Shown here piece after piece: positions 12,740-36,227 of a stretch of DNA of 64,000 nucleotides. Numbering within the stretch: position 1 is the stretch's first letter; every line of letters starts with the position of its first letter. Below the pieces are notes generated by a model. The model saw only the letters and a list, made by a program, of their open reading frames with translations. It was not told where the DNA came from and made no database searches. This DNA comes from Deltaproteobacteria bacterium (GTDB taxonomy: Bacteria > Bdellovibrionota_B > Oligoflexia > Oligoflexales > Bog-1112), in contig JACPKR010000033.1 in NCBI GenBank assembly GCA_016186945.1, positions 1-64,000 on the forward strand. Reading direction: 5' to 3'. The position numbers were made by a program, and so were the translations under genes.

Positions 12740-13055
12740 ATGACCCCCCGAACCTTTCGGATCGAATAAAAATCGCAAGCCCCCGACGAATCGTAATGGT
12801 AATGCGTAAGCCACTTGGGGCAAATGGGGAGAGGGGGGTTTGGGGGGGCGAGTGAAGCGTCGCTTCCCCCATAGATTTTTCTTGGAGGAACCAGCTGCGC
12901 AGTTTCCTCCAAACCACCTCCTTGCCCCAAGTGGCTCACGCGTTACTCGTGATCTCCACCTTCGGCATCCATTTTAAATAATTTAGCGTATTTTATATCT
13001 AGGCGATGTGGGGGATCAGTGCTCTGATTTTACTGAGTTTTATTCAAAAGTGTCT
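12740..13055. other. leader region of the giant kinase operon
   Basis: The gap between the kinase start and the upstream minus-strand gene. It holds one complete copy of dispersed repeat A (listed separately) and an AT-rich stretch (12960-13055) that may contain the promoter. No gene is visible. The repeat would be transcribed as a structured 5' leader if the promoter lies above it. Confidence 0.5.
12804..12942 (-). repeat. dispersed repeat A, copy 1 (complete)
   Basis: About 140 bp bounded by 20-bp terminal inverted repeats: GCGTAAGCCACTTGGGGCAA on the left and its near-perfect complement (TTGCCCCAAGTGGCTCACGC) on the right. Inside is a G-rich arm and a second dyad (TTGGAGGAA facing TTCCTCCAA around TGCGCAG). 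It is non-coding. Related copies occur near 33119, 34777, 39597, 43939, 57391, 60094 and 62253. Confidence 0.85.
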
Positions 13056-28936: not shown

Positions 28937-29029
28937 TATACTATTTGAGAAAAGGAATTTGTGGAGAGGACCTTTTTTGAAAAAAAGTTCCCCTCCACAC
29001 CTCCCCCCAAAAAACTTTAAATACTGAAG
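28937..29029 (+). repeat. dispersed repeat B, copy 2
   Basis: Same element as at 17058, left end TATACTATTTGAG, right end AAATACTGAAG. It begins 8 bp after the thioredoxin-like stop and ends 4 bp before the end of the next minus-strand gene. It forms an inverted pair with copy 3 around that gene. Confidence 0.88.
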
Positions 29030-29033
29030 GAAA

Positions 29034-29336
29034 TCAGTCTTCGGGAGTGATCGGCAATTTCTTCACCTCAGTATCAAGACTCTGTGCCGATTGAATCATT
29101 TCCGGCCGCCAATTCCTGCGAATCGTAACAAAGTCATAGGTCTGATCCACACTCGACTGATCCAGCATCGTTCCCATGGGGGACGTACGCTCCCCTTGGA
29201 TGGTGGCAGCATCGAAATCGTGGCGCGTGCGAAATGTCGGACCTTCCTGACCCGAGGGTTTGCTTTCCTTTTCTTGCGCGTGGAGAGGAGTGAGGAACAG
29301 CCCTAACGCAAGTGTTGCCGTGTTTTGGATCCTCAT
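29034..29336 (-). CDS. small secreted protein bracketed by inverted repeat B copies
   Basis: 100 residues from the ATG at 29336. Signal peptide 1-20 (hydrophobic ATLALGLFLTP, cleavage after LHA). The mature part is short, polar and without Cys or recognisable motifs (RTRHDFDAATIQGE, TYDFVTIRRNWRPEM). A longer frame upstream runs only through repeat B and is rejected. The gene is the sole content between two inverted repeat B copies (28937-29029 and 29346-29430). Function unknown; periplasmic location inferred. Confidence 0.6.
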   Translation of the reverse strand: MRIQNTATLALGLFLTPLHAQEKESKPSGQEGPTFRTRHDFDAATIQGERTSPMGTMLDQSSVDQTYDFVTIRRNWRPEMIQSAQSLDTEVKKLPITPED

Positions 29337-29345
29337 AAGTTTCCC

Positions 29346-29430
29346 TCTAAAGTTTTTTGGGGGGAGGTGTGGAGGGGAACTTTTTTTCAAAAAAGGTCCT
29401 CTCCACAAATTCCTTTTCTCAAATACTATA
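29346..29430 (-). repeat. dispersed repeat B, copy 3 (inverted)
   Basis: Reverse orientation of the element at 28937. Its left end faces rightwards and runs into ACTATATAATAG, so a perfect TATAAT (29429-29434) forms at the junction, 55 bp before the ATG of the next plus-strand gene. Confidence 0.88.
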
Positions 29431-36201: not shown

Positions 36202-36227
36202 GAGATTAAATTCAAATATGGATCCCG

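Follow-up and report, generated by a model that had tools for sequence, protein, structure and literature searches.

Repeat B, a short non-coding sequence scattered through this genome, is most probably (about 0.88) an IS630-type MITE, two copies of which landed around a resident CglF-like gene and now face each other across it (pair 1). The window, i.e., the whole stretch of 64,000 nucleotides that was analysed, holds a second arrangement of the same kind (pair 2), for which the balance of evidence is different. The initial annotation had taken the two arrangements for a non-autonomous composite element. The non-autonomous half of that proposal stands, on the terminal inverted repeats, the high copy number, the mostly intergenic positions and a same-genus transposase remnant with a matching end; the composite half falls for pair 1.

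The complete unit of repeat B measures 167 bp: among the 33 copies (of 61) in which a script recognized both ends, 17 have exactly this length. Its left end begins TATAGTATTTGRG, its right end finishes CTTGAAYACTATA, and the two make up imperfect terminal inverted repeats of ∼28 bp. When the consensus of 22 full-length sample copies is folded, three hairpins occupy the interior and the terminal repeats pair to close the structure (−53.7 kcal/mol). The sequence at either end is TATA, as a TA target would give. The target duplications that had been looked for did not extend, by eye, beyond TA at the ends of full-length copies, and the flanks of 28 such copies gave one one-sided match elsewhere, with no empty site recovered. 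Short, non-coding, bounded by terminal inverted repeats and present in many copies, repeat B has the features of a MITE. Literature searches, which could not use its sequence, found no paper on it. No known RNA family reaches the gathering threshold in the window; five weak hits at four loci, of which L067 is without repeat B, are hairpin look-alikes below the cut-off, and an RNA-family reading was dropped.

How abundant is this element? Its core matches the 2.66-Mb draft genome 151 times (86 + 65, with at most three mismatches) and the reversed control 0 times, far above chance. A profile found 77 copies in an 864-kb sample, roughly one third of the genome, made up of the window and 40 stretches, which extrapolates to ∼237 for the genome at a density that may be slightly high: 20 of the stretches are the initial 20 kb of contigs known mostly via their matches to repeat B, and the remaining 20, at round coordinates, were picked after the list of core matches had been seen. 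The two counts place repeat B at roughly 150−240 copies in this genome. Only 15 of the 77 midpoints fall inside ORFs of at least 150 aa, though such ORFs make up 85% of the sample DNA; repeat B avoids genes and is mostly intergenic.

Many copies are truncated. Away from the edges of the stretches (74 copies), 36 keep both ends, 25 the left only, 11 the right only, and 2 neither. A strong bias toward loss of the right end, suggested by a first sample read by eye (∼15 vs 2), was abandoned on these larger counts: the bias is weak, and partly driven by the window, which supplies 4 of the 25 copies. The terminal pattern matches 199 times genome-wide, and all 30 matches read by eye are repeat B or mosaics with another palindromic module. 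Such mosaics, in which repeat B ends surround the other module (TGTCATCCCGCGG...CCGCGGGATGACA), were seen at L041, L044, L045, L180, L185, L190, and L206, and they show more than one junction.

In the window, copy 1 (17058−17170, plus strand) has both ends and is internally deleted, as is copy 4 (47929−48057, plus strand; 129 bp), which has both terminal repeats. Copies 2 (28937−29029, plus strand), 3 (29346−29430, minus strand) and 5 (48496−48591, minus strand) retain the left end, hairpin 1 and the middle, and have lost the right end, in copy 3 beside the ATG of the neighboring gene; copy 6 (53435−53540, plus strand) has lost its right end as well. Copies 2 and 3 make up pair 1 and enclose one remotely CglF-like gene of 100 codons plus stop (29034−29336, minus strand), with a signal-like N-terminus by eye. 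Copies 4 and 5 make up pair 2, around a 126-codon gene for a small membrane protein, so named by eye (48109−48489, plus strand). The inverted geometry described in the initial annotation is real at both sites. At pair 1, arms of 83 nt (28937−29019 and 29348−29430) are 99% complementary with 328 nt between them, and the gene is separated from the repeats, as counted by eye, by 4 bp at its stop and 9 bp at its ATG. At pair 2, arms of 96 nt (47929−48024 and 48496−48591) are 98% complementary with 471 nt between them. The arms so detected are parts of repeat B, not whole units.

Which enzyme could move such an element? The genome itself, a draft that is 91% complete, gives no match to DDE_3 (PF13358), so that the partner transposase is missing, lost or unassembled, and the transposase with matching ends that might have been expected was not found there. 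An autonomous copy of repeat B in the own genome was discarded on the same DDE_3 result; Y1_Tnp and DDE_3 were the families searched there. DDE_3 occurs in 17 of the 56 genomes compared, the own one included. In a genome of the same genus, G001, one matching end was found: locus L281 carries a remnant ending in the C-terminus of a DDE_3 (IS630-type) transposase, and bases 16 to 43 past its stop read, on the reverse strand, TATAGTTTTCGGGAAAATTAATTTGGGG. This sequence agrees with one right-end variant of repeat B at 24 of 28 positions, with the right-end consensus at 23, and with two left-end variants at 23 and 22, whereas 19 of 28 was the highest agreement with the first right-end variant in 20,000 single-base shuffles of the L281 end. 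Only this one end of one broken IS630-type element is seen in G001. Because it matches the ends of repeat B at 22−24 of 28 positions, an IS630/Tc1-mariner-type MITE is the best reading of repeat B; mobilization in trans and a TA target would follow by analogy with the transposase family.

The next best matches in the G001 DNA examined, 21 and 20 of 28, come from the opposite ends of another element, on contig C142, a 146-bp sequence (L232, 1811−1956) with repeat-B-like ends and a different interior. L285, the other DDE_3 locus of G001, lacks an end of this kind on the one side examined. A scan of 15 DDE_3 loci gave near matches of 13 bases in several, and only that of L281 sits, in our reading, as the end of an element.

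The core of repeat B was found in 1 of the 56 genomes, the own one. Three contigs of G001 stop within 19−21 bases of the repeat B left end, so that repeat B probably exists in G001 and was lost in assembly; given these breaks, no restriction of repeat B to one species is proposed. Genome G008 offered 12 matches to the terminal pattern as candidates. None of the 10 loci viewed is repeat-B-like, and 7 of them have in common a repeated ORF, by eye similar to a transposase gene.

The same relative is informative about pair 1. Locus L066 of G001 reads lon (−), a thioredoxin-like gene (+), the orthologue of the enclosed gene (−; 57% over 58 residues), a 308-aa gene (+) and the next gene (+), and order and strands are identical in the own genome. 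The profile finds no repeat B in this locus at E values up to 10. At 16 of 18 further loci, from members of the family and the order, a relative of the pair 1 gene lies near the orthologue of the 308-aa gene (E ≤ 0.01). The gene itself scores 32.1 bits against NCBIfam NF033764 (gliding protein CglF), under the 90-bit cut-off. Judged from these sequence comparisons, the gene family is old and the pair 1 arrangement is no gene cassette: since the G001 orthologue stands in place without the repeats, the repeats came to the gene, and not with it.

The sequence of events would then be as follows. A transposase supplied in trans would recognize the terminal repeats of repeat B, which would have spread to its roughly 150−240 genomic copies, mostly between genes. 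Two of them, copies 2 and 3, would have inserted into the short spacers flanking a CglF-like gene inherited vertically, and would have lost their inner ends after insertion. The structure and copy number of repeat B, the conservation of the gene in place, the chance-level pairing and the transposase end in the same genus are observed; the movement by a transposase, the duplication of the TA target, and the separate insertion of copies 2 and 3 are what we infer.

Other explanations can be weighed against this one. Repeat B could belong to the REP/BIME elements and owe its mobility to a RAYT (Y1 tyrosine) transposase: a GGAG-like head stands ahead of a hairpin, presumably a point for this reading, and the genome has four Y1_Tnp stretches, one of which has a degenerate copy of repeat B to one side, while two have repeat A within the flanks examined. 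However, none of the four has repeat B on both sides within the flanks examined, and the terminal inverted repeats are clear and match an IS630-type end; on this survey and this match the idea was rejected as very improbable. Just as hard to sustain, and if anything even less probable, is the idea that pair 1 moves as a composite unit and transports its gene via its outer ends. These ends are indeed left terminal repeats, both facing out, and copies 2 and 3 have in common a variant found in only 4 of 93 copies, but the in-place G001 orthologue, the 16 further loci and the pairing of repeat B all speak against it. Neighboring copies less than 500 bp apart number 2 in 864 kb, both in the window, against 4.1 expected; those facing as in pair 1 number 2 against 1.0 (P = 0.29), and pairs within 2 kb number 9 against 12.6. 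The expectations come from a Monte Carlo placement, uniform and with genes included, at the sample's own count of copies, so that the test is little affected by sampling bias. Close pairs do not exceed the chance level, and orientations in the sample are mixed; the non-random pairing implied by the initial annotation did not emerge. Random pairing and an enclosed gene conserved in place without the repeats, both seen for pair 1, are the observations that the initial annotation had named as refuting its proposal. A more plausible variant, doubtful but worth keeping in mind, concerns how the two copies arrived: by a short-range hop or by gene conversion between the arms, not by two long-range insertions. 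The members of each pair are 97.6% identical over 84 nt (among 93 copies chosen by their core, so that identities apply to core-bearing copies), and this higher likeness, with the shared rare variant, means that copies 2 and 3 may not be fully independent; still, 11% of all repeat B pairs are equally similar.

With the arrival of two copies around a resident gene as the preferred reading of pair 1, the next question is whether pair 2 (47929−48591) has the same origin. Copy 4, the 126-codon gene and copy 5 lie in a 716-bp spacer between two convergent genes, one of 314 aa and the other with a sulfite/nitrite-reductase domain. In G001 these genes are adjacent: the tblastn alignments end 56 bp apart, with ∼15 bp between the stops by eye, and the profile finds no repeat B at the site. 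The locus (L172) contains paired unknown bases; one such pair lies in the final part of the 314-aa gene, and none between the stops. The gene and the repeats of pair 2 are thus missing from the same spot in one genome, and G001 is the only comparison because the reductase gene does not adjoin the 314-aa gene in any other relative that has the latter, a hit in L170 being weak and partial. Searches with the 126-codon gene gave nothing in G001 and six further family genomes (G001 to G007), and 24%-identity hits in only 2 of 55 relatives, with the same outcome over 58 phylum genomes, the own one included. Its product, with a four-helix, DoxX-like look by eye, belongs to no Pfam or NCBIfam family; searches for its origin gave two plasmid records at 25−27% identity, and no viral contig. 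Neighbors that stand end to end in G001, a gene without close kin and intact outer terminal repeats would all suit a composite MITE whose insertion placed the membrane-protein gene, in one block, in the convergent spacer. Against this, the gene is present as a single copy in the own genome, and the GC content (47.8% for pair 2 vs 48.2% in the sample) is near the sample value and so gives no foreign signature. The one genome available for comparison is 75% complete, loss in G001 or a separate gain of the gene would fit as well, and chance alone should produce about one facing pair this close in the sample. Arrival as one block is a tentative and rather unlikely reading. The wider proposal, in which two outward-facing ends of an IS630-type MITE composite carried a lineage-specific membrane-protein gene and high-copy MITEs would serve as gene carriers, is a shade less likely again.

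The window has other repeats. Repeat A forms a further family of very high abundance, ∼150 bp long, with ends GTAATGCGTAAGCCACTTGGGGCAA and two hairpins by eye; it lies at 12799−12946, 33115−33195, 34777−34962, 39592−39672, 43941−44079, and 57372−57452, and the 864 kb contain 128 matches to its hairpin and 78 to its end. The genome therefore has at least two abundant MITE-like families, repeats A and B. An exact 48-bp direct repeat (855−902 and 1858−1905), similar by eye to the 3′-half of a tRNA although ARAGORN reports no tRNA, encloses a gene pair for a nucleotidyltransferase and a substrate-binding (HepT-like) protein; hairpins of the GACAGCTGACA type lie at 631−722 and about 1685−1734, and the region looks like a tiny tRNA-associated island with a toxin-antitoxin-like pair. 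On the minus strand, a 2516-codon ORF (5273−12823) contains ∼14 tandem 276-bp units that are 61−79% like the reference units, and a 23-bp tandem array at 36210−36484 is related to the CCGCGGGATGAC palindrome. At locus L220, a 1355-bp direct duplication (10610−11963 and 14139−15492; 94% identical) sits in two large ORFs that flank a GTPase-like gene, these names being given by eye.

What do these observations mean? In a MITE-rich genome, inverted pairs of repeats around single genes can arise by chance, and an orthologue that stands in place in a relative provides a test that separates chance pairs from real gene-carrying units. The genome of a relative also ties the high-copy repeat B to a transposase family. 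If pair 2 were a true composite, gene carriage would extend from Tn3-derived MITEs to those of the IS630 type.

Known systems offer several parallels. Mobile insertion cassettes consist of a passenger gene between transposon ends without a transposase; the gene of pair 1 is instead resident, while pair 2 is a candidate. Correia elements start with a TATAG-like sequence. In outline, the Correia/NEMIS family resembles repeat B in its length below 200 bp, TA-ended terminal repeats, more than 100 copies, stem-loop transcripts and internal length variants; repeat B differs in having a matching IS630-type end in the same genus, and the two are likened here by description, not by sequence. Correia/NEMIS of Neisseria are described as TA-ended MITEs below 200 bp, of 107 and 155 bp (PMC2229807), with a copy number over 100 (PMC10969869). 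RUP of Streptococcus pneumoniae, a 107-bp MITE with 108 intergenic copies, has IS630-Spn1 as its proposed mover (PMC2229807); it shares with repeat B the intergenic copies, the IS630-type ends and the TA target, but the partner transposase of repeat B lies in a related genome and not in its own assembly. QMITE2 and Chunjie have many truncated copies, as does repeat B (PMC10969869). Finally, TIME-COMP elements place two MITE copies in the same or opposite orientation around passenger genes (PMC4133298). They are Tn3-derived, with 5-bp duplications and demonstrated transposition, whereas pair 2 is known from its sequence alone; in their architecture, they offer a possible parallel for pair 2.
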